From the NCBI GenBank assembly GCA_015231925.1, contig JADGAQ010000017.1, positions 1 to 36,289 on the forward strand: DNA of 36,289 nucleotides, in the 5' to 3' direction. The notes beneath the pieces were generated by a model. It searched no databases. It was not told the DNA's origin and saw nothing but the letters and a program-made list of their open reading frames with translations. This document shows, piece after piece, positions 219 to 14,994 of the stretch. Numbering within the stretch: the stretch's first letter is position 1; every line of letters starts with the position of its first letter. A program made the position numbers and the translations under genes. The stretch is from Magnetococcales bacterium. Lineage in GTDB: Bacteria; Pseudomonadota; Magnetococcia; Magnetococcales; JADGAQ01.

Positions 219-273
219 AGCCAAGTCCGCCTGCTAAACTGCTCCTTTGGTGCATTCAAAAGACTCTCGCTAT

Positions 274-278
274 GGAGG
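274..278 (+). promoter_or_regulatory. Ribosome binding site fixing the lsrF-like start
   Basis: GGAGG lies 10 bases before ATG 289. An earlier in-frame ATG at 247 has no such site, and the E. coli LsrF protein begins with the same residues (MADLD) as the 289 start, so 289 is chosen. Confidence 0.8.
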
Positions 279-288
279 AACAACGGGC

Positions 289-1170
289 ATGGCCGATCTG
301 GATGGCAATCTGGACACCCACGACTATCACCTGGAGAGCCCGCAGACCAATCGGGTATTCGGCCTGAAGGGTCTCAACGAACTCGACTGGGGTATGAAGA
401 ACCGTCTGTCCAATATCTTCTCCCCGGCCAGCGGACGCACCGTCATGCTGGCGGTGGACCACGGCTACTTCATGGGCCCCACCACCGGTCTGGAACGCAT
501 CGATATCGATATCGTGCCCCTGCTGGCCTACGCCGACACCCTGATGTGCACCCGTGGCATTCTGCGCAGCGTCACCCCGCCCACCTTCACCCGTGGTGTG
601 GTGTTGCGGGCCAGCGGCGGACCCAGCATCCTCAAGGAGTTGTCCAACGAGCAGATCGCCGTGGACATGGAGGACGCCGTGCGCCTCAACGCCTCCGCAG
701 TGGCGGTGCAGGTCTTCGTGGGCGGTGAATTCGAAACCCAGTCGATCCATAACATGACCCGCCTGGTGGATGCCGGTCTGCGCGTGGGCATGCCGGTCCT
801 CGGCGTGACCGCCGTGGGCAAGCAGTTGACCCGGGATGCCCAGTACATGCGCCTGGCCACCCGCATCTGCGCCGAGTTGGGCGCCACCTACGTCAAGACC
901 TACTATGTGGAAAAGGGCTTCGAAAGCGTGGCCGCCTCCTGCCCGGTACCCATCGTCATCGCCGGCGGCAAGAAACTCCCGGAGGAAGAGGCCCTGACCA
1001 TGGCCTGGCGCGCGGTTCAGGAAGGCGCCGCCGGTGTGGACATGGGACGCAACATCTTCCAGGCCGCCCATCCCGATGCCATGATTCAGGCGGTGCGCCA
1101 GGTGGTGCATCAGAACAAAAGCCCCAAAGAAGCCATGGATTTCTATCGTCAGGCCCTCCATGACCAGTAA
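289..1170 (+). CDS. lsrF: LsrF-family thiolase/aldolase
   Basis: This 293-residue protein matches E. coli LsrF almost end to end by eye (291 residues there). LsrF is a cytoplasmic class I aldolase-fold enzyme that passes an acetyl group from 3-hydroxy-5-phosphonooxypentane-2,4-dione, a breakdown product of phospho-AI-2, to CoA. Shared stretches include [40 protein letters not shown] and [10 protein letters not shown]. The catalytic lysine (K203 in LsrF) falls at residue 203 here, in the [11 protein letters not shown] segment. The gene overlaps the next by 11 bases. No LsrK kinase, LsrR, LsrG or transporter gene is present in the window, so the substrate may differ from AI-2; related proteins include 2-amino-3,7-dideoxyheptulosonate synthases. 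Family is certain, exact substrate is not. Confidence 0.9.
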
Positions 1171-1870
1171 CATCTCCGTAAGGCATGCCTTGTTGGGAGA
1201 GCGACTGACCGTCATCAGCGCCGTGGCCACCGCAGCGGATGCCATGCACCTGGAACGGGATTTCTCGCGACTGGAAAAATGCGGTATCGACTGGCTGCAT
1301 TTCGACTGCATGGACGGCCGGTTCGTGCCCGAACTGACGGTCGGCCCCGCCTGGATCCGCACCTTGAACACCCCCCTGGTCCGGGATATCCACCTGCTGG
1401 TCGAAGACCCCGAGCGCCACTTCGCCGCCTGTCTGGAGGCCAAGGCCGATGTGGTCAGCTTTCATTTGGAAGCCTGCGCGGATCCGGGAGCAGCCATCGA
1501 TGCCCTTAAAGCCCAGGCAGCGGGACGCCCTCTGGTGGTGGGACTGGCGCTGTTGCCCGAAACCCCTGTCGAGACGCTTTTCCCCTGGCTGGAACGTATC
1601 GATATGGCCCTGCTCCTGGCGGTGGATCCACGGGGCGGCGTCGCCCCCTCCTTTGCCACGGTCAGCGCCCGCTGGCAGGCTTTGAGGGAGGCCTGCAAAG
1701 CCCTGGTCTGTCCCCCTCTGCTCTGTTTCGACGGCGGCGTCAAACGCGAAAATATCGAGGAGATCGCCGCCCTCAAACCCCAGGTGGTGGTCAGCGGCAG
1801 CGCTCTGTTCAAAAACCAGGCACTGGAGGCAAACGCCACCTTCATGTTATCCACCCTGAGCAACACTTGA
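1160..1870 (+). CDS. LsrE/ribulose-phosphate 3-epimerase-like protein
   Basis: This 236-residue TIM-barrel protein belongs to the ribulose-phosphate 3-epimerase superfamily. The metal-ligand pattern of Rpe is kept: H47 and D49 in [13 protein letters not shown]78 in DIHLLVEDP and D191 in [10 protein letters not shown]. The usual N-terminal PSILSAD signature is altered to ISAVATAAD, as expected for a side branch rather than housekeeping Rpe. In Salmonella the lsr operon carries such a paralogue, LsrE, next to LsrF; the same pairing occurs here. The ATG overlaps the end of the lsrF-like gene by 11 bases, so the two are probably translationally coupled. Expected role: epimerisation or isomerisation of a phosphorylated ketose in the same pathway; substrate unknown. 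Confidence 0.8.
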
Positions 1871-1878
1871 GAACCTCC

Positions 1879-3945
1879 ATGAAAAACCGCTGGGACGACG
1901 ACGCCCTCAAGGCCTTTCTCGCCACCCTGCCTCCCGAGGTGGATCCTCACCATGGCGCCCTGGTCTACGTCAGTCGTCTGATGGGGCAGGAACCGACCCT
2001 GGTACTCCATGGCGGGGGAAACACCTCCGTCAAATACCGGGGTGCGGATCGCTGGGGGCGGGAACGGGCCGTTCTTCGGGTCAAGGCCAGCGGCTGCGAT
2101 CTGGAAAAGAGCGGACCCGAGGGCTATGTCGCCGTCGACGCGGAAGCGCTTGCCCATATCGCCTCCCAAAAGGAGTGGGCCGATGAGCAACTCCCCGTTT
2201 TGCTGCGGGATCACCTGCTGCATCACGAAGAGGCCACCCCCTCCATCGAGGCGCTGCTCCATACCCTGATTCCCGCCACCTGGATCCTGCACAGCCATGC
2301 CGACGCCATTCTGGGCCTGACCAACCAGGCCAACGGCGCGGAACGGGTGCGGCATCACCTCGGGGAGGAGGTATTGATTCTTCCCTATCACCGCCCCGGA
2401 TTCACCCTGGCGCGGGAGGCGGCCCGCCTGTTTGGGGAGAATCCTGCGGCAAAAGGTATGGTTCTGCTGCACCACGGACTGATCACCTGGGGTGAAAACC
2501 CCCAGGAGGCCTTCGCACGCACCCTGGAACTGGTGAACCGTGCGGAGAAGGCCTTGCCCTCGCTCCCTCCGCGAAATCCCCAGGCGGCTTCCAACGCCAT
2601 CTCCTGGTACATCGAACAGGCTCCGCGCCTGCGCGGCGCTGTGTGCCCTCCAAGCCTCAACCCGGATCGTCCCTTCCGGCCCATGGTTCTGGAACCCCTG
2701 CTGGAAGGCCCCCTTCCCGGATTGGCCCCCCTTCCGCAACTCAAGGAGGAGCTGGTCTCCCCTCCCCTGACCACCGATCACCTGATCCGCACCAAACCCC
2801 TGCCCATGTGGCTGGAAAATCCGGAAGAGCTGGCAACCGCCCTGAGTGATTACCAAACCGGGTACCACGCTTATCAGGAACGCCACTCCTCGCGGCGGCT
2901 GCCGGGAGCCCTCCTGCAGGATAGCCTGCCGCGGGTGCTGCTGATCAAGGATGTCGGCGCCGTCTGCGTCGGGCGTGATGCCAGGGAAGCGGGTATCGTG
3001 AGGGATATCACCCACCAGACCCTGAGCATCAAACAGCGCGTGAGCAAGGCGGGCTGGAGCTATCGGGGACTGGACGAGGAACACCTCTTCGACATGGAAC
3101 ACCTGCCCATGCAGCAGGCCAAGAAGGGAACCGTCGAGCCCCCCCTGGCGGGACATATCGCCCTGGTCACCGGGGCCGCGGGCGCCATCGGAGCCGGCAT
3201 CTGCCGCTCCCTGCTTCAGGCGGGAGCCCATGTCGGGGCAGCGGATATCGACCCCAAACGACTCGATTCCCTGCTGGAGGAGCTGGTCTCCTTCGGCAAG
3301 GACCGACTCATCGGCCTGCCCATGGATTGCACCGATCCGGAGGCCGTCAACCAGGCCTTCGATACCCTGATCACCACCTGGGGTGGTCTCGACCTGCTGA
3401 TTCTCAACGCGGGCAGTGCCCACGTCTCCACCCTGGAGGAGATGGATCCCGAGGCGTTTCGCCGCCTGGAACGCATCAATCTGGAAGGTACCCTCTTCCC
3501 TCTCAAACGGGCGGCGCAACTCTTCCGGCAGCAGGGCATCGGCGGCGACGTGGTCCTGATCTCCACCAAGAACGTCTTTGCGCCGGGAGCCGGATTCGGC
3601 GCCTATTCCGCCACCAAAGCGGGCGCCCACCAATTGGCGCGTATCGCCAGCCTCGAACTGGCCCCCCTCGGGGTGCGGGTCAACATGGTGGCCCCGGATG
3701 CCGTCTTCAGCGACGGGACACGCCGCTCCGGCCTCTGGGATACCGTCGGACCCGACCGCATGAAGGCCCGTGGACTCGACGAAAAGGGGCTTGAAGACTA
3801 CTACCGGTTGCGCAATTTGCTTAAATCGAAAGTCACCGCCGATCATGTGGCCAACGCCGTACTCTTTTTCGCCACCCGGGCCACCCCCACCACCGGAGCC
3901 ACCATCCCCGTGGATGGGGGCTTGCCGGATGCCACCCCCCGATAA
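1879..3945 (+). CDS. Fused class II aldolase / short-chain dehydrogenase
   Basis: This bifunctional protein of about 688 residues has two parts. The N-terminal part (about 1-400) is a class II aldolase/adducin domain, with the phosphate-binding GGGNTS loop and a zinc-binding HSHAD motif near residue 140, followed by HHGLITWG. The C-terminal part (about 425-688) is a Rossmann short-chain dehydrogenase with TGAAGAIGAG near 430 and the catalytic YSATK (Y576, K580). The architecture is that of the rhamnulose-1-phosphate aldolase/lactaldehyde dehydrogenase fusions, which cleave a sugar phosphate and oxidise the aldehyde. A TTG at 1867 is in frame, but it overlaps the previous stop; ATG 1879 is preferred although no strong ribosome site precedes either. 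With its neighbours it suggests cleavage of a phosphorylated sugar. Confidence 0.82.
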   Translation: MKNRWDDDALKAFLATLPPEVDPHHGALVYVSRLMGQEPTLVLHGGGNTSVKYRGADRWGRERAVLRVKASGCDLEKSGPEGYVAVDAEALAHIASQKEWADEQLPVLLRDHLLHHEEATPSIEALLHTLIPATWILHSHADAILGLTNQANGAERVRHHLGEEVLILPYHRPGFTLAREAARLFGENPAAKGMVLLHHGLITWGENPQEAFARTLELVNRAEKALPSLPPRNPQAASNAISWYIEQAPRLRGAVCPPSLNPDRPFRPMVLEPLLEGPLPGLAPLPQLKEELVSPPLTTDHLIRTKPLPMWLENPEELATALSDYQTGYHAYQERHSSRRLPGALLQDSLPRVLLIKDVGAVCVGRDAREAGIVRDITHQTLSIKQRVSKAGWSYRGLDEEHLFDMEHLPMQQAKKGTVEPPLAGHIALVTGAAGAIGAGICRSLLQAGAHVGAADIDPKRLDSLLEELVSFGKDRLIGLPMDCTDPEAVNQAFDTLITTWGGLDLLILNAGSAHVSTLEEMDPEAFRRLERINLEGTLFPLKRAAQLFRQQGIGGDVVLISTKNVFAPGAGFGAYSATKAGAHQLARIASLELAPLGVRVNMVAPDAVFSDGTRRSGLWDTVGPDRMKARGLDEKGLEDYYRLRNLLKSKVTADHVANAVLFFATRATPTTGATIPVDGGLPDATPR

Positions 3946-3963
3946 ATCAGGAGACCACCTCTC

Positions 3964-6900
3964 GTGCAGCAGGATGCGATGCAGGGCAAACGGGAAGCCA
4001 GAGAGTTGTTGCAGGGAGCCAACTCCTGGCCGGAAGTCGAAAAGGCACTGGCCGGTCTCAGCCAGCCCGATGCGGCCTTTCGCTGGATCGTGCTGGCCCT
4101 GTTGGCCACGGGACGGCTGCTCTTCATGCGGGCCTTTCATCCTCCCGGTCAGATTCCCCTGACCCTGCATCGACGCCTCTCCCCGGCCTGCCTCGCCGCT
4201 CTGGCCACGCCTGCCTGGGACGGACTTCTGGAAATCCCCTGGGGTGACCCCTGGCTGGCGGCCATCCGCTTTTCCGCCATGCCCCCCACCGCCAAGGAGA
4301 CCGCCGCCTTTCTCCTTCCCGAGGCTTTGCCCCGGCTATTGGTCAGCAACTCCCGCAGTCTGCCACCACGCCTGTTCCAACAACCGGGGCTGTCGATCCT
4401 GGACGGCTGGCATCTCCGGACCCGATTGCCCCACCAGTTGCCCGCCATGCGACGCTGGCTGCAAACCGGGCTGCCCGCGGGTGAACGGTGCGAGCCGCCG
4501 GCTCTCATCCGGGAAACCACGCAGGCGCTTCTCCCCGGAGGCGAGGGACACCTCCTGGTCCATCATGCCCCCGGAGAGAGCGGCCTGGAGCTGTTGCTGG
4601 CCCTGGCGACCGCCTACGGAGGCAGCCGATCCCTGACCGTCCTGCTGCCTTCGCGAGCCCATTTGCAGCAGATAGCCGCCCACTGGGAGAACCGGGCCCC
4701 CTGGGCCGCTTTGGCCTGTCTGGCCGTCTGTCGGGAAAAAGGGGGCTCCCGTTCCCTTGATCTGCCGCTCTTCACCGACGGCGAATGCGGCTTTCCCCTG
4801 GTTCGGGAGGTCGCCGCCGTCAAGGAGTTTTTGGCCTGGCGTTTCTCCGGAACCCGCATCCTCCTGGCCACCCCCTCTGGATGGCCCATCCTGCACGAAG
4901 CCCTGGAAGCCTTTCCCGCCAGCCAAAGCGCCCTGCTCCTGCCGGAATGGCATCTCTCCCGCAACGCCCTGCCCACCGGGTGGCAAACCGCCTGGCAAGC
5001 ACATCAGGGCAAAGCGCCCCACATTCATCTTTCACCCCTCTCCACGCCGTGGGAAAACGGCCCCCCGCTGGAGATCACCCTGACCCAGGCCCAGCAGCAC
5101 GGTCTGGCCAAACCCTGGCGTCTGGCCCTGCTGCGGGTTCCCGAAACGGAAGAGGCCCCTCAAACCGGGGAGAATATGCCCGAAGCGGTCATGGAAGCCC
5201 TGGCCCAGGTTCCGGCCTTGTTGCGTCTGCCTCGTCTGGTAACCTGTCACCGGGATGCCGCCTCGGCGAAAAATTTCCTGCAGGCCTTTTCCGGTCGTTT
5301 CCCCCAAACCTTCGGAGGCTGTCACCTCACCGTGGCGGGCAACCAATCCCGCACGGAACGCAACACCACCCTGGAGCGATTCGCCTCCGCTCCGGCAGCC
5401 CTCCTCGCGACAGCCCAGGTGGCTCTGTTCCACCGTGACCAACTTGCCGATGCCGCCTTCTGCCTGTGGGACATCGAGTCCCTCAAGGGGGACATCGCCC
5501 CGCTCCTGGCGGCGGTGACGGCCGCTCACGGCTCCGGCGCGAACGGATGGCTGGTGTTGCCTCTGAAAGGCGACCGGAATCTCGCCACATGGAAAGCCTC
5601 CTTTTCCCAATGGATCCGCCTGCTGGGCGAAGCGGATGCGGCCTTTACCCGACAGGTGCGCTCGCTGCGTCAAAACATCGGACGCGGGGACGGTGCCGAC
5701 ATGCGCCCCCTGCTGCAACGCTTCCTGCTCATCGACCGGGAAGCCGCCGAGGAGTCCTTTTTCCGACTGCTGGGGCAGACGGTTCTGGAAGCCCTCTCCA
5801 GCGACTGGGACGAACAGTTCGGAAGTTTTCTCAAACACGTCCAACTCCACGGCACACGGGATCCGCTTCCGGAAGAGAATCCCGGCCTGCTGGCCTGGAT
5901 CGGGCAGCAACGACGCGACCATCGCCTGGGCAAGGGACGCCCGGAAGAGGTCGAACTGCTCAATCGTCACGGTTTCATCTGGGACATGGAGGCCTGGCTG
6001 TGGAACCAGAGCTGGCAACGTCTGCTGCAACACCGGCAGACCACCGGTTCCGCCCTGGTGCCCGAAAAGTGGGAAGCGGACCCGCCACTGGCGGAATGGG
6101 CCGCGAAACAGCGCCAACTGCGGAACCAAAAGAAGCTGGAGGAGTCCCGCCAAAAGCGGCTCGACCAGATCGGTTTCGTCTGGGATTTGGAAGAAGCCGC
6201 CTGGATGGACTCTTTCTCCCGCTGGCAGGCCAATCCCCTCTCCGACGAACCGGAGTTGCAGGCTTGGGTACAGCGTCAACGAAAGCAACACGCCGCCGGA
6301 AAGTTGCCGGAAAAATGGACCAGGATTCTTGCCGAACACGGCTTCGATTTCGACCCGGAGGAGAGCGCCTGGACCGCTGCTTTCCAACGAATTGCGCATC
6401 ATCTGGAAGCCACCGGACGTTTTCCGGAGGAGAACAGCCCTGACGACGCCTGGATCGAGAGTCAGCGTCGTCTCTACCACAAACAGAGGCTGGCAACGGA
6501 GCGATTGTTAAGGTTGGAGGCACTGGGGATCGATTGGAATCCGGAGGAGACCGCCTGGAACCGGACCTTCCAGGAATTGCTCGGCCTGTTTCCCCCCTGG
6601 CCGTCGGAAGAGAGCCCGCTGGGCCAGTGGGTGGAGAGTCAGCGCCGCTTGCGTCGCAAAGGGGGGCTTTCGGAGGATCGGATGGCCCGACTCGAACAGC
6701 TCGACATCGACTGGAACCCCGAGGAGACCGCGTGGCAGGCGATGTTCGCCCACTTCCGCGAATGCCGCTGGCCGGCACGGGAGAGTGAACTGGAGCGGTG
6801 GTGCGCCGAACAACGCCGTTTGATGCGCAGCAACCGGCTCTCCGCGGAGCGCATGCGGCAGCTTGAAGCGGTCTGCTTCATTTGGGATCCGCTGGAAGCG

Positions 6901-7695
6901 GAATGGGAGCAGCAGTTCAACGAGCTGCGGCTTTTCCGGCAAGAACGTGGCCATTGCCATGTGCCCCGGGAGTGGCAGGCTTCGGCAGAATTGCCCCGAT
7001 GGATCGGCAAACAGCGCAAGCTTCACCGGGAAGGATTGTTAGCCGCCGAAAAGGTCAGCCGACTGGAGCAACTCGGTCTGGTGTGGAATCCGGGCTCGAA
7101 CCTGTGGGAAGAGCAGTTTGCCGCTCTGGCGGCTTTCAAAGAGAAGCATGGTCATTGCATGGTGCCGGAATCCTGGGAAGAAGACCCCGAACTGGGCTGG
7201 TGGATCAAGATTCAGCGGCAATTGAAACGCAACGGCAAACTGGACCAGGAACAAGCCCGGCGGTTGGACGAACTGGGTTTTATCTGGGACGAGGCGGCGG
7301 CGCTTTGGGAGGAGTCTTTTGTGCAGTTACTGGCTTACAAAATGCATTCGGGACACACCAACGTGCCCGAAGAGTATCGGGAAAACCCCCGCCTGGGTCG
7401 TTGGGTTGCTGCGCAACGCAACGCCCAGGCCAGGGGTCTGCTTTCCAGGGATCAGCGGGAACGCCTAGAGGCGCTTGGCTTTGTCTGGGACCCGAGAGAG
7501 GTGCTTGCTGAAGAATTCCTGATGGCTCTGGCCAAGTTCAAAGAGGAACACGGGCATTGCCATGTGCCCCTTGATTGGATCCCCAATCCAAAACTTGGCC
7601 TCTGGGTTCTTGGCCAACGCCAACGCAAACAGAGGGGCGAACTCAAGCAGGAAAGGGTCCAACGCCTTGACGCGCTGGGATTTGAATGGGACTGA
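3964..7695 (+). CDS. Ten-repeat helicase-associated (HA) protein with degenerate SF2 helicase core
   Basis: This protein has 1243 residues. The start is GTG 3964, chosen because AGGAG (3949-3953) lies 10 bases upstream. From about residue 613 to the C-terminus there are ten units of roughly 57-68 residues with the helicase-associated domain pattern: W-x3-F at the start, GHC-VP in the later copies, a G-x-W-V-x2-QR core and a closing LGF-x-WD. The first 600 residues align loosely with the SF2 helicase core that normally precedes HA domains, but its motifs are gone: Walker A GxxGK[ST] is GESGLE (204-209), DEAH is PEWH (327-330), and the motif VI region 510-523 has lost the Q, G and both R. It should not hydrolyse ATP. 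It follows the aldolase fusion by 18 bases. HA domains are thought to bind nucleic acid; the role here is unknown. Confidence 0.75.
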   Translation: MQQDAMQGKREARELLQGANSWPEVEKALAGLSQPDAAFRWIVLALLATGRLLFMRAFHPPGQIPLTLHRRLSPACLAALATPAWDGLLEIPWGDPWLAAIRFSAMPPTAKETAAFLLPEALPRLLVSNSRSLPPRLFQQPGLSILDGWHLRTRLPHQLPAMRRWLQTGLPAGERCEPPALIRETTQALLPGGEGHLLVHHAPGESGLELLLALATAYGGSRSLTVLLPSRAHLQQIAAHWENRAPWAALACLAVCREKGGSRSLDLPLFTDGECGFPLVREVAAVKEFLAWRFSGTRILLATPSGWPILHEALEAFPASQSALLLPEWHLSRNALPTGWQTAWQAHQGKAPHIHLSPLSTPWENGPPLEITLTQAQQHGLAKPWRLALLRVPETEEAPQTGENMPEAVMEALAQVPALLRLPRLVTCHRDAASAKNFLQAFSGRFPQTFGGCHLTVAGNQSRTERNTTLERFASAPAALLATAQVALFHRDQLADAAFCLWDIESLKGDIAPLLAAVTAAHGSGANGWLVLPLKGDRNLATWKASFSQWIRLLGEADAAFTRQVRSLRQNIGRGDGADMRPLLQRFLLIDREAAEESFFRLLGQTVLEALSSDWDEQFGSFLKHVQLHGTRDPLPEENPGLLAWIGQQRRDHRLGKGRPEEVELLNRHGFIWDMEAWLWNQSWQRLLQHRQTTGSALVPEKWEADPPLAEWAAKQRQLRNQKKLEESRQKRLDQIGFVWDLEEAAWMDSFSRWQANPLSDEPELQAWVQRQRKQHAAGKLPEKWTRILAEHGFDFDPEESAWTAAFQRIAHHLEATGRFPEENSPDDAWIESQRRLYHKQRLATERLLRLEALGIDWNPEETAWNRTFQELLGLFPPWPSEESPLGQWVESQRRLRRKGGLSEDRMARLEQLDIDWNPEETAWQAMFAHFRECRWPARESELERWCAEQRRLMRSNRLSAERMRQLEAVCFIWDPLEAEWEQQFNELRLFRQERGHCHVPREWQASAELPRWIGKQRKLHREGLLAAEKVSRLEQLGLVWNPGSNLWEEQFAALAAFKEKHGHCMVPESWEEDPELGWWIKIQRQLKRNGKLDQEQARRLDELGFIWDEAAALWEESFVQLLAYKMHSGHTNVPEEYRENPRLGRWVAAQRNAQARGLLSRDQRERLEALGFVWDPREVLAEEFLMALAKFKEEHGHCHVPLDWIPNPKLGLWVLGQRQRKQRGELKQERVQRLDALGFEWD

Positions 7696-7726
7696 AGCCA
7701 TGTAATCCCTCCTCCGGCTGGTGCGG

Positions 7727-7750
7727 ACGACCAGGATCCCTCCTGGTCGT
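7727..7750. terminator. Bidirectional hairpin between HA protein and phaC
   Basis: A perfect 10-bp stem, ACGACCAGGA (7727-7736) with TCCTGGTCGT (7741-7750), closes a 4-base loop. It lies between two converging genes (stops at 7695 and 7782). The plus-strand tail is moderately T-rich (TGTTTCGTCT), so it probably ends transcription in both directions. Confidence 0.7.
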
Positions 7751-7781
7751 TGTTTCGTCTAAGGGAATCCCCCGTCTTTAA

Positions 7782-8846
7782 TTATTCCCGCTCCCGAAAC
7801 CAGTTGACAATCGCGGTTGGAATCTCTTTTTGAGCTCGTCCGCTGACGTAAATCCCGATATGACCCCCTTTGAAGGCCATTTCGGTGTAGTCGGTCGTCC
7901 CCACCAGTTTCCCCAAAATGGTGGAGGCTTCCGGCGGTACCAGATGGTCCTCAGTGGCGAAGACATTCAGTACCGGCATGCTTATATTGGACAGTTTAAC
8001 CTGTTTATTGCCAATTGTCACTTCACCTTTCACCAAACCGTTACGTTGGTAAAAGTCCTTGATAAACTGGCGGAAAGCCTCCCCGACCTGATCCGGGCTG
8101 TCGAAGATCCACTTTTCCATGCACAGGAAGTTTTCCAACTTCGTGCGATCATCCATGATCTGAACCAGGTCCAGATACTTCTGCGCCGTGAGGCGGAAAG
8201 GCTTCAGGGCCAGGAAGGTCAGGTTCAGCATCTCCCCCGGAATGTTACCCAGGGTGTTGACCATCAAATCCACGTCCAGATTCTGGGCCCAGTGGCTCAA
8301 CAGATTGCCGGGGGCATGAAAATCGACCGGCGTCACCATGGTGACCAGATTGCGCACCTTGTCCGGATGGAGGGCGGAGAAACAGAGACTGAAGGTGCCC
8401 CCCTGACAGATGCCCAGCAGATTGATCTTGCTCAATCCATGACGTTCACAAATTACGCCAACACTGCGCCGGATGTAGCCGTTGATGTAGTCATCCAGGC
8501 TCAGGAAGCGATCGGCCTCGTCCGGATATCCCCAGTCGATGAGGTAGACATCCATGCCCTGCTCCAGGAGCCGGCGGATCATGGAGCGCTCTTTTTGCAG
8601 ATCGGCCATATAGGGCCGGTTCACCAGAGCATACACCACAAGAACCGGAATACGGAACGGCTTTTCCACCAGGGGCGTGAAGCGGCAGAGTACCATCTTG
8701 TCTTCGGTATAGATGGTTTCCCTCTGGCTCGCGCCAACATCGATGGCGCTGATCTGGCTCAGATTTTCCAGGCCTTGAGCCAATTTCTGGTTGAAGTCGA
8801 CAACTTCCCGCACGATCCGGTCGGGGTTGTTAAGAATGGGGATCAT
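7782..8846 (-). CDS. phaC: Class III PHA synthase catalytic subunit PhaC
   Basis: This 354-residue alpha/beta-hydrolase-fold enzyme polymerises hydroxyacyl-CoA into polyhydroxyalkanoate at the granule surface. Its length is that of class III synthases (about 355) rather than class I or II (about 560-600). The lipase-like box is GICQGG with nucleophile C147; the other triad members are D300 (FATEDHLVPP) and H329 (KGGHIGIYV). All three lie two residues before the C149/D302/H331 triad I recall for Allochromatium vinosum PhaC. A GGAGGAG site precedes ATG 8846. The gene starts 13 bases after phaE ends, so both subunits, which act as a complex, come from one transcript. Confidence 0.95.
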   Translation of the reverse strand: MIPILNNPDRIVREVVDFNQKLAQGLENLSQISAIDVGASQRETIYTEDKMVLCRFTPLVEKPFRIPVLVVYALVNRPYMADLQKERSMIRRLLEQGMDVYLIDWGYPDEADRFLSLDDYINGYIRRSVGVICERHGLSKINLLGICQGGTFSLCFSALHPDKVRNLVTMVTPVDFHAPGNLLSHWAQNLDVDLMVNTLGNIPGEMLNLTFLALKPFRLTAQKYLDLVQIMDDRTKLENFLCMEKWIFDSPDQVGEAFRQFIKDFYQRNGLVKGEVTIGNKQVKLSNISMPVLNVFATEDHLVPPEASTILGKLVGTTDYTEMAFKGGHIGIYVSGRAQKEIPTAIVNWFRERE

Positions 8847-8859
8847 GCCTCACTCCTCC

Positions 8860-10113
8860 TCACTCGGTCGGGGAATCGGGGCCCGTCTTGCGGCGGGCAC
8901 GGTTGGCGGCATCATCCCGAACGTCGGCAACTCTGGCCCTGGCGGGGTTGGTCGCCAGCACATCGCGCAAGGCGCCAAGATCCTGCTTCAGATCATAGAC
9001 TCCCATTTTCTCGATGTCGTTCCGTAGTGCCTTGATTTCTTGTTCCAGGTTGAGCTTGCGCAGCTTGCCAACCTCTTCTTCCAGATCCAACACACGTCGC
9101 TTCAGTTCCAGAATACGCTTGTGGGCGGTATCCAGCTCCCGTCGGGAGGGCATGTTCATGATGGAAAGGCTTTTTTCCACCCACTCCCGACTGTGATGCT
9201 TCAGACGCATCAATTCGTTGATCATGCGGCCGTTGAGCTGGCTGTACTCTTCCGTCTGGGCGACCTGGGCGAAGGCATCCTCGGCGCAATCCACCCACAG
9301 ATCGAAGAAGGCCTTGAAGGTCTCGATGGACGGCGGCGCCTCGCCGGTTTTGGGAACCAGTTTGGCCTGCAACCGCTCCAGGGCGTCGCGTCCCACGTTG
9401 GAAAGCAGCCCCATGTAGGCTTGCAGCGCCTCCTGGTAGCTCATCCAATGGCGCAACCCTTCCTGATAATGCTCCTGCCATTCACGGGTGTAACCCACCG
9501 CCGGAACGGAAAGATACTTCTCCATATTGGTGCGGAAAACTTCCCCCGCCCGAAGCAGATCCTCCTCCTTGAGGGGATGCAGCAAACCTCCGGGCAGCGG
9601 TGAAATGGAAGCAGCCATACGCTGCCAGGTATCCATCGGCAGGGCCCAGAACTGCTGAGCTCCCTGACCACTGAAGCCGCCCATGCCCATGGGATTGAAG
9701 GACATCTGCTGGCGCAACTGGTCCAACGTGCGTTGCACCGCCCCGGTCCACTCTTCACCCGCATGCAGGCCGCTTTGCATCTGCTGGAAGGCCTTCATGA
9801 AAACTTCGGCCATTCCCATATAGTTCTGACCTGCCGACAACATGGCCGGGAACATATTCGGAATCGGGTTGCCACCCATGCCACCCATGCCACCCATGCC
9901 GCCCATGCCGCCCATCATGCCGCTCAGGGGATTGGCGCCAGGGGACATTCCCGACTCCATGTTCTTCTGCCAGAACTTGAACATCGCATCGGCGGGGGGG
10001 ACTCCCCCCCCAACCGGTTTGCTGGCGGCATTGGACCACATCTGCCAGACCTTGTTCTGCATGTCGGTCCAGCCCTCAAGCCACTGTTGAGACCATTCAA
10101 ATTGATCGGCCAT
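8860..10113 (-). CDS. phaE: Class III PHA synthase subunit PhaE
   Basis: This 417-residue partner subunit is needed for activity of short PhaC synthases. The N-terminus (QFEWSQQWLEGWTDMQNKVW) and the central helical region, rich in W, Q and M, are typical of PhaE. The C-terminal third (about 310-395) is a long heptad-rich coiled coil starting near RRELDTAHKRILELKRR. Between about residues 66 and 82 there is a Gly-Met repeat (GGM units) encoded by a 9-base tandem repeat. A purine-rich AAGAGGGAGAGG precedes ATG 10113. The protein is longer than the roughly 360 residues of the Allochromatium subunit, the extra length lying partly in the linker and in a basic C-terminal tail. Confidence 0.9.
   Translation of the reverse strand: MADQFEWSQQWLEGWTDMQNKVWQMWSNAASKPVGGGVPPADAMFKFWQKNMESGMSPGANPLSGMMGGMGGMGGMGGMGGNPIPNMFPAMLSAGQNYMGMAEVFMKAFQQMQSGLHAGEEWTGAVQRTLDQLRQQMSFNPMGMGGFSGQGAQQFWALPMDTWQRMAASISPLPGGLLHPLKEEDLLRAGEVFRTNMEKYLSVPAVGYTREWQEHYQEGLRHWMSYQEALQAYMGLLSNVGRDALERLQAKLVPKTGEAPPSIETFKAFFDLWVDCAEDAFAQVAQTEEYSQLNGRMINELMRLKHHSREWVEKSLSIMNMPSRRELDTAHKRILELKRRVLDLEEEVGKLRKLNLEQEIKALRNDIEKMGVYDLKQDLGALRDVLATNPARARVADVRDDAANRARRKTGPDSPTE
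9872..9916. repeat. Five 9-bp tandem units inside phaE
   Basis: On the plus strand CCACCCATG occurs three times, followed by CCGCCCATG and CCGCCCATC, head to tail. On the coding strand these give Gly-Met-Gly units in a flexible linker. The unit is a multiple of three, so copy-number slippage would change linker length without breaking the frame. Confidence 0.85.
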
Positions 10114-10225
10114 GATTCGCCTCTCCCTCTTGGGCCTGACTTCGGCTCAACGATCCATACCGCCACCGAAGCACGCGCCCCATTCATTATTTTGAATCTG
10201 CACGCACCCTTCGGCAGAATACGAC

Positions 10226-10582
10226 TTACTCGGCACCATCCTTGGCCTGGCCCAGAATGGCTTCCATGCCCTTTTCCATCAGGTCGTTGATTTCGCGGCG
10301 GCTCTGATTCAGCAACTCAACCGTTTGCTTGGCATGGGTCACCATCCGGTCCGAAAGCTCCTTGGTCAGCTCGGCCTGCTTGCCCAGAACGTCCTTCATA
10401 TCCTTGGATTCGCCCATCATGCGCAGCTGCTGCACACCGGCGCTCATGTACTCGCCAACCGCATCCAACTGACGCTCCGCCAGCTTTTGAACCGTGCGCT
10501 CGTTGATCTGCTGCAACCGCATCATGGAATTCAATACGGCCTTGGTCATTTCGGTCATTTGCTCGGCGACTTTCTTATCCAT
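10226..10582 (-). CDS. Phasin (PHA granule-associated protein)
   Basis: This 118-residue, almost wholly alpha-helical amphipathic protein has no cysteine or tryptophan, as expected of small phasins that coat PHA granules. Segments such as QLDAVGEYMSAGVQQLRMMG and TVELLNQSRREINDLMEKG show the phasin pattern. The start is ATG 10582, where GGAG lies a proper distance upstream; an in-frame ATG at 10648 lies in the regulatory region and is rejected. The gene has its own promoter with two probable PhaR operators (10609-10623 and 10676-10690). It lies between phaR and phaE. Expected regulation: repressed by PhaR until polymer or oligomer titrates PhaR away. Confidence 0.88.
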   Translation of the reverse strand: MDKKVAEQMTEMTKAVLNSMMRLQQINERTVQKLAERQLDAVGEYMSAGVQQLRMMGESKDMKDVLGKQAELTKELSDRMVTHAKQTVELLNQSRREINDLMEKGMEAILGQAKDGAE

Positions 10583-10608
10583 CTTGGCATCTCCTGTCTG
10601 GTTCGTGA

Positions 10609-10623
10609 TTTTGCACTGCAAAA
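10609..10623. promoter_or_regulatory. Probable PhaR operator, downstream copy
   Basis: TTTTGCACTGCAAAA is a perfect 7-bp inverted repeat around one base. It falls just after the predicted transcription start of the phasin gene. PhaR proteins of Paracoccus and Rhodobacter bind TGC/GCA-rich dyads in phasin promoters, one near the start point. Assignment here is by position, symmetry and the matching second copy. Confidence 0.65.
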
Positions 10624-10637
10624 GCTCGTTGAAACAC

Positions 10638-10667
10638 AAGCTACCCAAAAAGGCCCTATCCTGTCAA
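10638..10667 (-). promoter_or_regulatory. Phasin promoter
   Basis: On the minus strand a perfect -35 TTGACA (10667-10662) is followed after 18 bases by TAGCTT (10643-10638) as the -10. The predicted start of transcription is near 10631, leaving a leader of about 48 bases before the phasin ATG. Confidence 0.6.
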
Positions 10668-10675
10668 TCCTTTTT

Positions 10676-10690
10676 TTCTGCATTGCAAAA
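10676..10690. promoter_or_regulatory. Probable PhaR operator, upstream copy
   Basis: TTCTGCATTGCAAAA repeats the TGCA-N-TGCA core of the downstream dyad with one mismatch in the 7-bp arms. It lies just upstream of the -35 box, so two PhaR units could bracket the promoter. It also lies 30 bases beyond the phaR stop. Confidence 0.6.
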
Positions 10691-10720
10691 TTTTGTCGAA
10701 ATTCCGTCAAAAACAGCCCG

Positions 10721-11398
10721 TTAGGCGTCGTCTTCTTCGAACTCTTCCTCGTCGAGCCCCAACAATTCCCCTTCCAGCTCGTGCGGATCGGGTGCTGCCT
10801 CGGGAGGTGTTTTGCTTTGGGTGGGACGTTGTTCCTTTCCGGAAGAGGAGAGGGAGGCATTGAGCTTGCGCAACTTGTGAAGGTTGGAATCGGCTAAGGC
10901 ATTAAAAAAAGGGTTCATCTGCAGCGGGTTCATCACCGAAAGCTGCTTGAAGAAGTTGCCCTGCTGCTCCTGGAAGAGCTCCAGGCTGTGGGTGAGATAG
11001 CCACCCATGAACTGCTGGGCCGAGGAGCCGTAAAGACGAATCATCATCTCCAGGAAGCTGGTTTCCAGCATGGGGCTTTCCTGGTCCTCGTCCTCCTGCT
11101 CGCTGATCACCTGAAGCAGAATGGCTCGGGTGATGTCCTTGCTGGTCTTGGAGTCGATGACCCGGAAGGGGGTCTTCTCCATGACCATGCGCCGCACGTC
11201 CGAGAGGGTCACGAAGGCGGACTTCTCGGTGTCGTACAGGCGACGGTTGGGGTATTTTTTGATGGTCCGCATTTTTTTGGGAAGGGGCATGTTCATGGCC
11301 TCATCCTGAATTGTCTTGGAACCTGCACCAGGCGGCGCTCCGGGCTCCCTTTCGGGCAGCAAGGTGGCCGTGGCATCTAAGACGGGTTGTGACTTCAT
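10721..11398 (-). CDS. phaR: PhaR, PHA synthesis regulator
   Basis: This cytoplasmic regulator binds both DNA at the phasin promoter and nascent PHA. The N-terminal DNA-binding domain is unmistakable: IKKYPNRRLYDTEKSAFVTL, then the DVRRMV and RVIDSKTSKDITRAILLQVI segments. A PHB-accumulation domain follows, and the C-terminus is acidic (DEEEFEEDD). The protein has 225 residues from ATG 11398, which has GGAG upstream. That start puts about 43 residues before the conserved domain, unusually many; ATG 11296 or 11290 also has a good AGGATGAGG site and would give the usual short N-terminus. It follows phaB after a hairpin, so it may have its own promoter. Confidence 0.92.
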   Translation of the reverse strand: MKSQPVLDATATLLPEREPGAPPGAGSKTIQDEAMNMPLPKKMRTIKKYPNRRLYDTEKSAFVTLSDVRRMVMEKTPFRVIDSKTSKDITRAILLQVISEQEDEDQESPMLETSFLEMMIRLYGSSAQQFMGGYLTHSLELFQEQQGNFFKQLSVMNPLQMNPFFNALADSNLHKLRKLNASLSSSGKEQRPTQSKTPPEAAPDPHELEGELLGLDEEEFEEDDA

Positions 11399-11461
11399 CC
11401 AGGTTCTCCAGACATTCTAACACAGACTTTTTGCCAAGCGGTAAACTTTCTTGCCTTGAGT

Positions 11462-11498
11462 TGGTCGGGGAGAGGGAAGAACCCCCTCCCCCCGACCA
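11462..11498 (-). terminator. Hairpin after phaB
   Basis: TGGTCGGGG (462-470 of this kilobase) pairs with CCCCGACCA (490-498), and after one mismatch GAGGG pairs with CCCTC, giving a stem of about 14 bp around a 7-base loop. It begins 5 bases beyond the phaB stop on the minus strand. No T-run follows, so termination may be partial, separating phaAB from phaR. Confidence 0.55.
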
Positions 11499-11503
11499 TT
11501 CAA

Positions 11504-12253
11504 TCAGAAGGACATGAACAGACCGCCGTTGATGGCGATGTTGGATCCGGTGATATAGCCGGATTCATCGGCAGCCAGGAAGGCCACGAGACGTCCGATC
11601 TCCTCCGGTTTACCCAAACGCCGCACGGGAACCTGGGCGATGATCTTGTTGCGGATCTCCTCTTCGATGGCCATGACCATCTGGGTGCCGATATAGCCGG
11701 GAGAGACGGTATTGACCGTGATACCCTTGGTGGCCACTTCCTGGGCCAGGGCCATGGTGAAACCGTGCATGCCGGCCTTGGCCGCAGAGTAGTTGCACTG
11801 CCCGAACTGGCCTTTTTGCCCATTGACGGAGGAGATGTTGACAATGCGTCCGAAGCCCCGCTCCAACATACCGTCGACCACGTTGCGGCTCATATTGAAA
11901 ACGGAGTCGAGGTTGACGTTCAACACCGCGTTCCACTGATCCCAGCTCATCTTCTTGAGGGTGCCGTCCTTGGTGATACCGGCATTGTTCACCAACACCT
12001 CGACGGGACCGACTTCAGCCTGAATCTTGGCAACAGTGGCCTTGCACTGCTCGAAATCACTCACTTCCACGGCGTAAACGGGCATGTCGAACCCTTCCGC
12101 CTTGCGGGCCGCCGCCCACTCTTCGGCGATTTTTCCCGCTTCGAAGGGGGCGCAAGTCGCCACCACGCGAAAACCGGCCTTGGCCATGCTCTGGCAAATC
12201 GCCGTGCCGATACCGCCCACACCACCCGTCACCACTGCAACGCGACCACTCAT
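11504..12253 (-). CDS. phaB: Acetoacetyl-CoA reductase PhaB
   Basis: This NADPH-dependent short-chain dehydrogenase reduces acetoacetyl-CoA to (R)-3-hydroxybutyryl-CoA, the monomer for PhaC. It has 249 residues. Features: TGGVGGIGTAIC cofactor loop near residue 10, NNAG at about 89-92, Ser in ISSVNGQKGQFGQ, and catalytic Y155 and K159 in NYSAAK. The GQKGQFGQ segment is characteristic of PhaB as against FabG. An in-frame ATG at 12262 directly abuts the AGGAG and is too close; ATG 12253 lies 9 bases after AGGAG and gives the family's usual MSGRVAVVTGG start. The gene follows phaA by 66 bases. Confidence 0.93.
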   Translation of the reverse strand: MSGRVAVVTGGVGGIGTAICQSMAKAGFRVVATCAPFEAGKIAEEWAAARKAEGFDMPVYAVEVSDFEQCKATVAKIQAEVGPVEVLVNNAGITKDGTLKKMSWDQWNAVLNVNLDSVFNMSRNVVDGMLERGFGRIVNISSVNGQKGQFGQCNYSAAKAGMHGFTMALAQEVATKGITVNTVSPGYIGTQMVMAIEEEIRNKIIAQVPVRRLGKPEEIGRLVAFLAADESGYITGSNIAINGGLFMSF

Positions 12254-12319
12254 CTCTGCCATCTCCTGTCCAGTTTCAGTTAGCCATCAAAGGGAACAAC
12301 CATCCCGACTCGGTGACGA

Positions 12320-13498
12320 TCAACGCTCCACAGCCAGGGCCACGCCCATGCCGCCGCCGATGCACAGGGTCGCCAGACCCTTGTGGGCGTCGCGGCGCAC
12401 CATTTCGTGCAGCAGGGTGACCAGGATGCGCGCCCCCGAGGCTCCGATGGGATGTCCGAGGCTGATGGCCCCACCATTGACGTTGATCTTGGAAAGATCC
12501 CAACCCAGTTCCCGATTGACCGAAATGGCCTGAGCCGCGAAGGCTTCGTTGGCCTCGACGAGATCGAGATCCTCCGCTTTCCAACCCGCCTTTTGCAGGC
12601 AGAGCCGTACCGCCGGGATCGGTCCGGTACCCATGATGCGCGGCTCCACACCGCCGGAGGCGTAAGCCACGATGCGGGCCATGGGCTTGAGACCCAGTTC
12701 CTTCACCCGGCTGGCCGAAGCCACCACCACGGCAGCCGCACCGTCGTTGATGCCGGAGGCGTTGCCAGCCGTCACGGTGCCTTCCTTGTCGAAGGCGGGC
12801 TTGAGGCCGGCCAAGGCCTCGGCGGTGGTACCCGCTCGGGGGAACTCATCGGTGTCGAAGACCACCGGAGGCCCTTTGCGCTGGGGCATCTCCACCGGAA
12901 TGATCTCTTCCTTGAAACGGCCCGCCTTTTGCGCCGCTTCCACCTTCTGCTGGGAGGAAGCGGAAAAAGCATCCTGGTCCTGGCGGGAGATGCCGTATTG
13001 CTTGGCGACATTCTCCGCCGTGACACCCATATGATAATCGTCAAAGATGTCCCACAGACCATCCATGATCATGGAGTCCACCATTTTCCAATCACCCATT
13101 TTGTTGCCATCCCGGGATCCGGGGACAACATGGGGAGAGCGGGTCATATTTTCCTGCCCGCCGGCGATGATGATGCCCGCATCCCCGCAGCGCACCGCCT
13201 GAGTCGCCAGAGCCACCGCTTTCAAACCGCTGCCGCAGACCTTGTTGATGGTCATTGCCGGCACCGTCACCGGAAGGCCGGCGCCCAAGGCCGCCTGACG
13301 CGCCGGATTCTGCCCGACACCTGCCGTCAACACCTGTCCCAGAATCACCTCATCAATCTGATCGGCATGCAAACCAGCCCGTTGCAGCAAGCCACGGATC
13401 ACGACGGAACCCAGTTTGCTCGCCGCCAGGGGCGACAAACTGCCCAGGAATTTTCCGATCGCCGTGCGCCCCGCTGCCGTGATGAATACCTCTTCCAT
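12320..13498 (-). CDS. phaA: Acetyl-CoA C-acetyltransferase PhaA (beta-ketothiolase)
   Basis: This enzyme condenses two acetyl-CoA to acetoacetyl-CoA, the first step of polyhydroxybutyrate synthesis. It has 392 residues, the family length. The active-site residues sit where expected: acylated C88 in NKVCGSG, H348 in [12 protein letters not shown], and the proton-transfer C379 in CIGGGMG. TGGAGGAAA precedes ATG 13498. It heads the minus-strand pha run, with phaB next. Degradative thiolases share the fold, but the phaB/phaR/phasin/phaEC neighbours make biosynthesis the likely role. Confidence 0.95.
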
Positions 13499-13742
13499 AC
13501 CCGTTTCCTCCAGTCAGTTCAGGCCTTCGGACCCATGCCTCCGGCACGCCGCAGTCAAAACAGTCTCTGAAGCTAACTCATTTTCACAAAATTTCAATGA
13601 TTCTCCGATAAAGGAATTAAAAAGCCCGGAAAAATCCCCTCCCGTGAAGCCCGGGCAGAACATGGATTGCCAAAAAGTGACCTTTCTGGCACTCTCCTCC
13701 GGTTGAATGGATGGGTGGAGCGCTTACGGGGGGAGTTTGTCA
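13499..13742. other. Divergent intergenic region between phaA and UXS gene
   Basis: These 244 bases separate the divergently transcribed phaA and sugar decarboxylase genes and must carry both promoters. The middle (about 13570-13625) is AT-rich. I saw no clear consensus promoter, no TGCA-N-TGCA dyad like those at the phasin promoter, and no RNA gene. Confidence 0.5.
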
Positions 13743-14702
13743 ATGTCGCGAAAACAGGTTCTGGTAACGGGTGGTGCGGGCTTTCTGGGCTCCCATCTTT
13801 GCGAATCCCTGCTTCAGGCGGGACACAACGTGCTGTGCGTCGACAATTTCTTTACCGGCACCCGGGATAACGTCCTCCACCTGCTCAGCAATCCACGCTT
13901 CGAACTGATCCGGCACGATGTGACGCTGCCGTTGTATGTGGAGGTCGACCAGATCTACAACCTGGCCTGCCCCGCCTCTCCGATCCATTACCAGCACGAT
14001 CCGGTGCAAACCACCAAGACCAGCGTCCATGGCGCCATCAACATGCTGGGTTTGGCCAAACGACTGAAGGCCCGCATTCTCCAAGCCTCCACCAGCGAGG
14101 TCTATGGCGACCCGCAGGTCCATCCCCAACCCGAATCCTATTGGGGGCACGTCAATCCCATCGGCACCCGCGCCTGTTACGACGAAGGCAAGCGTTGCGC
14201 CGAAACCCTCTTCTTCGACTATCACCGGCAGTTGGGTCTGGAAATCAAGGTGGCGCGCATCTTCAACACCTACGGACCGCGCATGCATCCGGATGACGGC
14301 CGGGTGGTCTCCAATTTCATCGTTCAGGCCTTGCAGGGCAAACCGCTGACCCTCTACGGAACGGGGCAGCAAACCCGCTCCTTCTGTTTCGTCTCGGATT
14401 TGGTGGCCGGCCTGATCAAGCTCATGGAATCCCCGGCAGGGGTCACGGGTCCGGTCAATCTGGGCAATCCGGGAGAGTTCACCATCCGGGAGCTGGCCGA
14501 ACTGGTGGTCGACATGACGGGCTCTTCCTCCCGGCTCGACTATCTTCCCCTGCCCCAGGACGACCCGCGCCAGCGCAAGCCCGACATCACCCTGGCCAAC
14601 GCCCTGCTGAATTGGCAGCCGACGGTCCCCCTGAAGGAAGGATTGCAGTCCACCATCCGCTATTTCGAGAATCGATTGCGGGAAGAAGGAGTCCTTGCGT
14701 AA
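13743..14702 (+). CDS. UDP-glucuronate decarboxylase (UDP-xylose synthase)
   Basis: This 319-residue NAD-dependent sugar-nucleotide decarboxylase converts UDP-glucuronate to UDP-xylose. The N-terminal Rossmann loop is [12 protein letters not shown] (8-19). The UXS signature follows: [17 protein letters not shown] (68-84), STSEVYGDP near 116-124 and the catalytic Y146xxxK150 in CYDEGK. The [20 protein letters not shown] segment is also typical. ATG 13743 has GGGGGAG 8 bases upstream; an in-frame ATG at 13707 lacks a site. It stands alone on the plus strand, facing the minus-strand sugar and stress genes; UDP-xylose would feed cell-surface glycans. Confidence 0.92.
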
Positions 14703-14715
14703 CCCCGGCACTCGC

Positions 14716-14746
14716 GGCCGGGAATCAGTCGTCCGGTTTCCCGGCC
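14716..14746. terminator. Hairpin between UXS gene and small Cys/Trp-rich gene
   Basis: GGCCGGGAA (14716-14724) pairs with TTCCCGGCC (14738-14746), a 9-bp stem with a 13-base loop. It lies just past the decarboxylase stop and takes in the last codons of the converging gene. No T-run is present on the plus strand, so it is a possible rather than proven terminator. Confidence 0.4.
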
Positions 14747-14994
14747 AGGCCGCAATAGCCCAGGTGCCCTTCGCGGGAGGGTTTCCAGCGCCAGAACATG
14801 CACAGGCTGCCCTTGCAGGCATTGCTGCTCCACCAGTCGCTCATCCCTTCCTGCTGTTCCATCCCCACGGTGTTGATCCAGTTGAAGCCGGCAGCCCCGC
14901 TCTGCAGGCTCAAATCCAGAACCCGAACCATGGGGCACCATTTCTTCTTCGCTTCCGCTTCCGTAACCAGAGACATTCCCGTGCGCTCGTTCAT
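14725..14994 (-). CDS. Small conserved Cys/Trp-rich protein
   Basis: This 89-residue protein starts at an ATGA overlap with the CheX-like stop. It has the layout of a small protein seen in phages and bacteria: an N-terminal TEAEAKKKWCP segment, then KGSLCMFWRWKP, then GHLGYCGLAGKP. Four cysteines and six tryptophans in so short a chain suggest a metal-binding or tightly packed fold; C20, C60, C65 and C80 are the candidate ligands. The function of the family is not known to me. It is the last gene of the long minus-strand run and ends inside a hairpin shared with the UXS gene. Confidence 0.65.
   Translation of the reverse strand: MNERTGMSLVTEAEAKKKWCPMVRVLDLSLQSGAAGFNWINTVGMEQQEGMSDWWSSNACKGSLCMFWRWKPSREGHLGYCGLAGKPDD

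Follow-up and report, generated by a model that had tools for sequence, protein, structure and literature searches.

The closest described systems to the gene studied here are the Type ISP enzymes LlaBIII and LlaGI (PDB 4xqk and 5ffj), in which an Mrr nuclease and an SF2 motor are combined with a coupler, an N6 methyltransferase and a C-terminal specificity (recognition) domain. A different combination is found in plasmid HA helicases of Pseudomonas, Rhodococcus and Micromonospora (L116, L118, L119 and L122), where an SF2 core with intact motifs is followed by 4-10 HA units and no nuclease domain was seen in the profile match. HA units of SF2 helicases are generally regarded as nucleic-acid-binding.

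The gene lies in a 36,289-nucleotide stretch of Magnetococcales DNA, referred to here as the window. By profile and structure match its product resembles LlaBIII and LlaGI in the order and predicted fold of an Mrr-nuclease-like region and an SF2 motor, but it lacks the coupler, methyltransferase and recognition domain, carries an HA array and has lost nuclease and ATPase residues. The features of the gene are as follows.

3964..7695 (stop included), forward strand: whole pseudo-nuclease-helicase-HA gene, start at GTG 3964 or ATG 3979
3979..4473, forward strand: N-terminal helix and Mrr-type nuclease-like domain, catalytically dead as judged by residues (relatives E..D..YQVK, window R..D..WLAA)
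4516..5580 (limits approximate), forward strand: SF2 helicase-like two-domain core with motifs I, II, III, V and VI lost, from alignment, profile and model
4573..4590, forward strand: motif I remnant GESGLE (residues 204-209)
4942..4953, forward strand: motif II remnant PEWH (residues 327-330)
5482..5541, forward strand: motif VI region without Q, G and R (around residues 507-526)
5800..7692, forward strand: ten-unit HA array, the last units at strict 67-residue spacing and the earlier ones irregular

The reading frame encodes 1243 residues without an internal stop, as the original prediction had it, and the codon composition is gene-like right up to the 3′ end. ATG 3979 may be an alternative start; its methionine, M6 of the window protein, aligns with the start methionine of the relatives, and the spacing of an AGGAG at 3949-3953 suits GTG 3964 better. 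Antisense ORFs overlapping the gene were taken as putative shadow frames, the gene being G+C-rich.

A Pfam search of the window protein found no helicase domain even at E ≤ 10. The profile of 27 family cores matches LlaBIII (E 7e-35) and LlaGI (E 8e-34), and the LlaBIII match starts in the Mrr nuclease and continues collinearly through the SF2 motor. An AlphaFold2 model of the window core (mean pLDDT 81.7, pTM 0.81) has LlaBIII as its best PDB match in Foldseek (E 6e-18, TM 0.62 query-normalised), where the matches are SF2 proteins for the most part. Two RecA-like SF2-type domains are thus supported both by these structure matches and by the profile matches to LlaBIII and other SF2 proteins. 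Because of the LlaBIII profile and structure matches, residues ~6-170 are assigned as nuclease-like and ~185-540 as motor-like, and the core reads, on this profile and model evidence, as an Mrr-type nuclease-like domain followed by an SF2 motor. The original prediction had treated the core as a helicase only, which holds for the motor part but overlooked the nuclease-like domain, a region covered within the LlaBIII profile and structure alignments of the whole core.

The sequence elements expected of an active SF2 helicase, namely Walker A GK[ST], a DEAD/DEAH motif II and the motif VI Q..GR..R, are all missing from the window protein. Loss of the Walker A motif to GESGLE and a change of DEAH to PEWH had been predicted, and both sequences are as described; the predicted loss of motif VI is likewise borne out, as the QAxGRxxR of the relatives aligns with PLLAAVTA, so that Q, G and R are gone. 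In the alignment the Walker A lysine is present in 0 of the 27 family cores as against 31/31 living cores outside the family, the motif II aspartate in 1/27 against 31/31, and the first arginine of motif VI in 1/27 against 31/31 (family Q, 1/27). The possibility that motifs are hidden elsewhere was ruled out: the protein contains no GK[ST] at all and no DExH ahead of the HA array, its alignment with LlaBIII runs collinearly, and the structure match placed no intact motif elsewhere in the core. Judged by sequence, the family motor is dead.

The same appears to be true of the nuclease domain when judged by its residues. Its lysine is found in 0/27 family members and in 13/13 living nucleases in the alignment, whereas the helix glutamate is retained in 5/27 and the aspartate in 19/27 relative to the same 13 proteins. 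The Mrr D...QxK motif is absent from the window protein, in which D is followed by WLAA, an assignment of D-QxK that relies on the alignment, on what is generally known about Mrr nucleases and on the citation of the LlaGI nuclease-motif paper in PMC4666363. No Pfam match to a coupler, an N6 methyltransferase or a C-terminal specificity domain was found in the window protein, whereas these domains are present in an intact Type ISP enzyme of 1677 residues from another genome of the order (L103:707-5737; G002:C140), together with nuclease and motor. By the residues tested, the window protein would be neither a Type ISP enzyme nor an active SF2 helicase or active Mrr nuclease.

A single-protein search of the genome contigs with the window protein gave no matches. 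A protein search followed by a profile search located the family in 44 of 48 Magnetococcales genomes (it is absent from G007, G008, G009 and G033), and complete copies have intact frames of 975-1587 residues. The order consists mostly of magnetic cocci and includes Magnetococcus marinus MC-1, so an isolate exists. A literature search on HA proteins in Magnetococcales found nothing.

Searching the genome contigs with the C-terminal HA alignment retrieved relatives outside the order, thirteen of which are full-length (L148, L168, L170, L176, L178, L180, L181, L182, L185, L188, L192, L194 and L196). Full-length relatives with intact motifs occur in Verrucomicrobiota, Nitrospirota and other Pseudomonadota; L148, L170, L176, L178, L180, L181, L182, L185, L194 and L196 have the full-length nuclease-SF2-HA form with motifs intact. 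The living proteins share the N-terminal helix, which is followed by a nuclease bearing E...D...YQVK, by an SF2 core carrying MACGTGKT, DEAH, TATPR, NARCLTEG and QATGR, and by HA units. L148 (Verrucomicrobiota), L176 (Gallionellaceae), L170 and L180 are collinear over the whole core profile and then continue into HA units, but unlike the window protein they have all motifs intact, mostly basic HA units (neutral in L176) and no aldolase neighbour. In living copies from Verrucomicrobiota the HA units number up to 11-13 and are strongly basic. At the living relatives' loci none of the neighbour genes of the window was found, including the aldolase, and a Pfam search of ten flanking genes at five loci found no methyltransferase or defence gene. 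These living proteins look like uncharacterised solo DNA-targeting enzymes.

Both the residue counts and the phylogeny cover 27 aligned family cores. In the maximum-likelihood tree the 27 dead proteins lie on one side of a branch with support of 100/100. When Type ISP enzymes are taken as the outgroup, this dead clade is most simply explained by a single loss before the order diversified; the motor loss is old and common to the whole family in Magnetococcales. The first protein to join in the dead clade, L043 (L043:6136-8472), keeps DAHRTVAG, TATPR and NARCLTEG but neither the P loop nor motif VI; it may represent a step early in the loss of the motor. The longest branch of the tree (1.88) belongs to the window copy. 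Besides G002, no intact core relative within the order was found among the matches listed, for which few candidates were scored per genome. An origin by transfer from phage was rejected, as phage records gave no match.

In twelve close family pairs, core omega (NG86) ranged from 0.06 to 0.32 and HA omega from 0.06 to 0.20, values that describe pairs within the family, the window copy itself being without a close relative among the genomes compared. Purifying selection maintains the protein family, and the original prediction of a frame kept under selection is upheld at this level. It had further proposed that the HA array is what matters. In support of this, HA omega was below core omega in 11/11 close pairs computable for both; however, with omega of 0.06-0.32 the core is constrained too, and therefore the HA array is not the sole part that matters. 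Decay of a single copy was rejected as the main reading, since relatives with normal motifs were sought and none exists in the family, and since close pairs show purifying selection. For the window copy, a long branch together with irregular spacing hints that constraint on its first HA units has been relaxed.

Pfam model PF03457 finds the predicted ten HA units at residues 613-1240 (E = 1.9e-114; 374.5 bits against a curated cut-off of 28.4). In the window genome HA units were found solely in this gene; two HA-domain searches gave no sign of a second HA gene, and the matches listed for relatives lie on the contig of the orthologue. The conserved W residues of successive window units are spaced by 67, 56, 62, 59, 57, 67, 67, 67 and 67 residues, whereas most other members have spacing near 67 throughout, so the first half of the window array has been eroded by short deletions. 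The irregular steps of 56-67 residues fall in the first six units (5800-6873). A model of the HA array gave no significant match in the PDB (model pTM 0.37, the whole-array shape not being predicted).

Around the gene, the following features are found.

1867..3945, forward strand: bifunctional class II aldolase/short-chain dehydrogenase (SDR) gene, the conserved upstream partner, above the NCBIfam NF006194 cut-off
1160..1870, forward strand: ribulose-phosphate 3-epimerase-like (Rpe-like) gene, in the same gene run, not conserved here in most relatives
247..1170, forward strand: LsrF-like gene (3-hydroxy-5-phosphonooxypentane-2,4-dione thiolase family), upstream in many relatives
7726..7751, forward strand: terminator-like hairpin of 11 pairs (6 G-C), ~30 bases past the stop codon, a consensus match only and weak evidence

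The aldolase/dehydrogenase gene ends 18 bp before GTG 3964 or 33 bp before ATG 3979, and given the hairpin the window gene is possibly the last of the unit. The tight coupling behind the aldolase noted in the original prediction extends across the order. Of the 31 copies whose upstream sequence is long enough, 29 have the aldolase/dehydrogenase gene immediately before them, 21 of these within 60 bases; among truncated copies the figure is 7/8. Families f8 and f13 retain the aldolase-pseudoenzyme pair, while any LsrF gene found in them sits on a different contig. Both genes are present in 41 of the 48 genomes; two others have only the aldolase (G008 and G009), three only the pseudoenzyme (G036, G045 and G047, each at a contig edge) and two neither (G007 and G033). 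Downstream of the aldolase/dehydrogenase gene in G008:C245 and G009:C222, a trace of the pseudoenzyme was sought and none was found, and the two genes are separated in G014, G032 and G042. The link between the genes is thus strong and conserved across the order, but the aldolase without pseudoenzyme and the separated pairs mean that the partnership is not obligate. Downstream in the window, the reverse strand carries polyhydroxyalkanoate genes (7782-13498; PhaC-like, PhaE, PHB accumulation regulator, SDR reductase and thiolase) and a 360-residue ORF (13740-14822) that matches nothing in Pfam at E ≤ 1e-5 or in NCBIfam at E ≤ 1e-3.

The original prediction saw the protein as a nucleic-acid ruler or scaffold, in which the motor is dead and the HA array still binds DNA or RNA, setting a distance or holding a complex. 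This would fit the general view of HA units as nucleic-acid-binding, the retention of the invariant W, QR and L (and of F), and the very regular 67-residue period in most members. The charge of the arrays speaks against it. Their median net charge per 100 residues is -0.86 (pI 6.6) in the family and +2.36 (pI 9.2) in 54 outside arrays, a shift that counts as one evolutionary event for the whole family, so that the small p-value of the comparison exaggerates it, and the ranges overlap, since the arrays of family f8 are still basic (+1.6 to +2.3), as a ruler would have it, and some outside arrays are neutral. The 500 residues preceding the array show no difference (-0.40 in the family and -0.26 outside), so a proteome-wide effect does not account for the shift. 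Most of the loss falls in the loop preceding helix 2, where basic residues at three sites fall from 42% to 10%, 34% to 4% and 50% to 17% between outside and family arrays, and the window array, at -1.8 to -2.0 per 100 residues, is irregularly spaced as well. This loss of basic charge argues against a nucleic-acid ruler, which we consider rather unlikely, and favours a protein scaffold or regulator.

A dead restriction-enzyme copy could also act in phage defence, as a decoy or regulator, either by sensing foreign DNA or by poisoning a Type ISP-like complex. Active relatives match PADLOC restriction-enzyme models and G002 carries an intact Type ISP enzyme, but the window protein (P0001) has no PADLOC match, the only intact core relative in the order among the matches listed is that of G002, and inheritance is vertical in one conserved metabolic neighbourhood and not in defence islands, which makes this reading improbable. 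We give equally little credence to the gene being an operon passenger, transcribed behind the aldolase with a function that is fading slowly, at least in the window lineage. On one side stand the long branch of the window copy, the shortening of its HA units, the absence of the gene from four genomes and the fast evolution of the core; on the other, omega far below 1 in all twelve close pairs, the intact frames of complete copies and the gene-like codon composition of the window gene up to its end. Lastly, the predicted integrity of the SF2-type folds, and some acidic residues still present at the motif II region in other members, might allow the core to bind or hydrolyse nucleotide at a non-canonical site; this is hardly credible, as the P loop has no consistent substitute lysine or arginine and the region varies among members.

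The reading that we favour, and hold to be somewhat probable, is that the protein descends from an Mrr nuclease-SF2 motor-HA enzyme, is no longer catalytic and serves as a scaffold or regulator, most likely through protein-protein contacts. With the cutting and motor residues lost and an aldolase gene adjoining, it is probably a structural or regulatory part and not an enzyme. A lineage ancestral to Magnetococcales would have lost the nuclease lysine and all ATPase motifs while the folds were kept, and the same lineage would have neutralised the basic surface of the HA array. From then on the product would have passed down by vertical inheritance as a large scaffolding or regulatory protein, with the two dead domains and the HA solenoid serving protein contacts and the aldolase/dehydrogenase encoded just upstream as first candidate partner. 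From the residue losses we infer that catalytic activity is gone; the HA charge loss suggests that nucleic-acid binding gave way to protein contacts, and the synteny may reflect a physical partnership with the aldolase/dehydrogenase. In a possible but doubtful extension of this model, a single conversion would have turned a restriction-type nuclease-translocase into a nucleic-acid-free protein solenoid that organises or controls the aldolase/dehydrogenase unit and has been kept order-wide.

To our knowledge validated pseudohelicases are few, and we know of no earlier indication of an HA array serving apart from a nucleic-acid motor, for which this would be the first case. The family would add a lineage-wide pseudohelicase dead in two enzyme domains at once, in which the conversion steps are readable thanks to the living full-length relatives and the partly decayed L043, and its conserved aldolase/dehydrogenase pairing supplies a directly testable candidate partner. 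As expected of a pseudohelicase, the sequence, model, omega and tree data together indicate a helicase fold with ATPase motifs lost and maintenance by selection. In Utp25 (PMC9539457) and Deinococcus radiodurans PriA (PMC4504706) the helicase fold is also kept while ATPase motifs are lost or dispensable, and the role is presumably structural. These two proteins differ from the window protein in belonging to unrelated lineages, in having neither a nuclease domain nor an HA array, and in acting in known cellular processes. By analogy the window protein may work like Utp25 and D. radiodurans PriA without being closely related to them, and by descent it is an HA-family member derived from the Type ISP nuclease-motor module.
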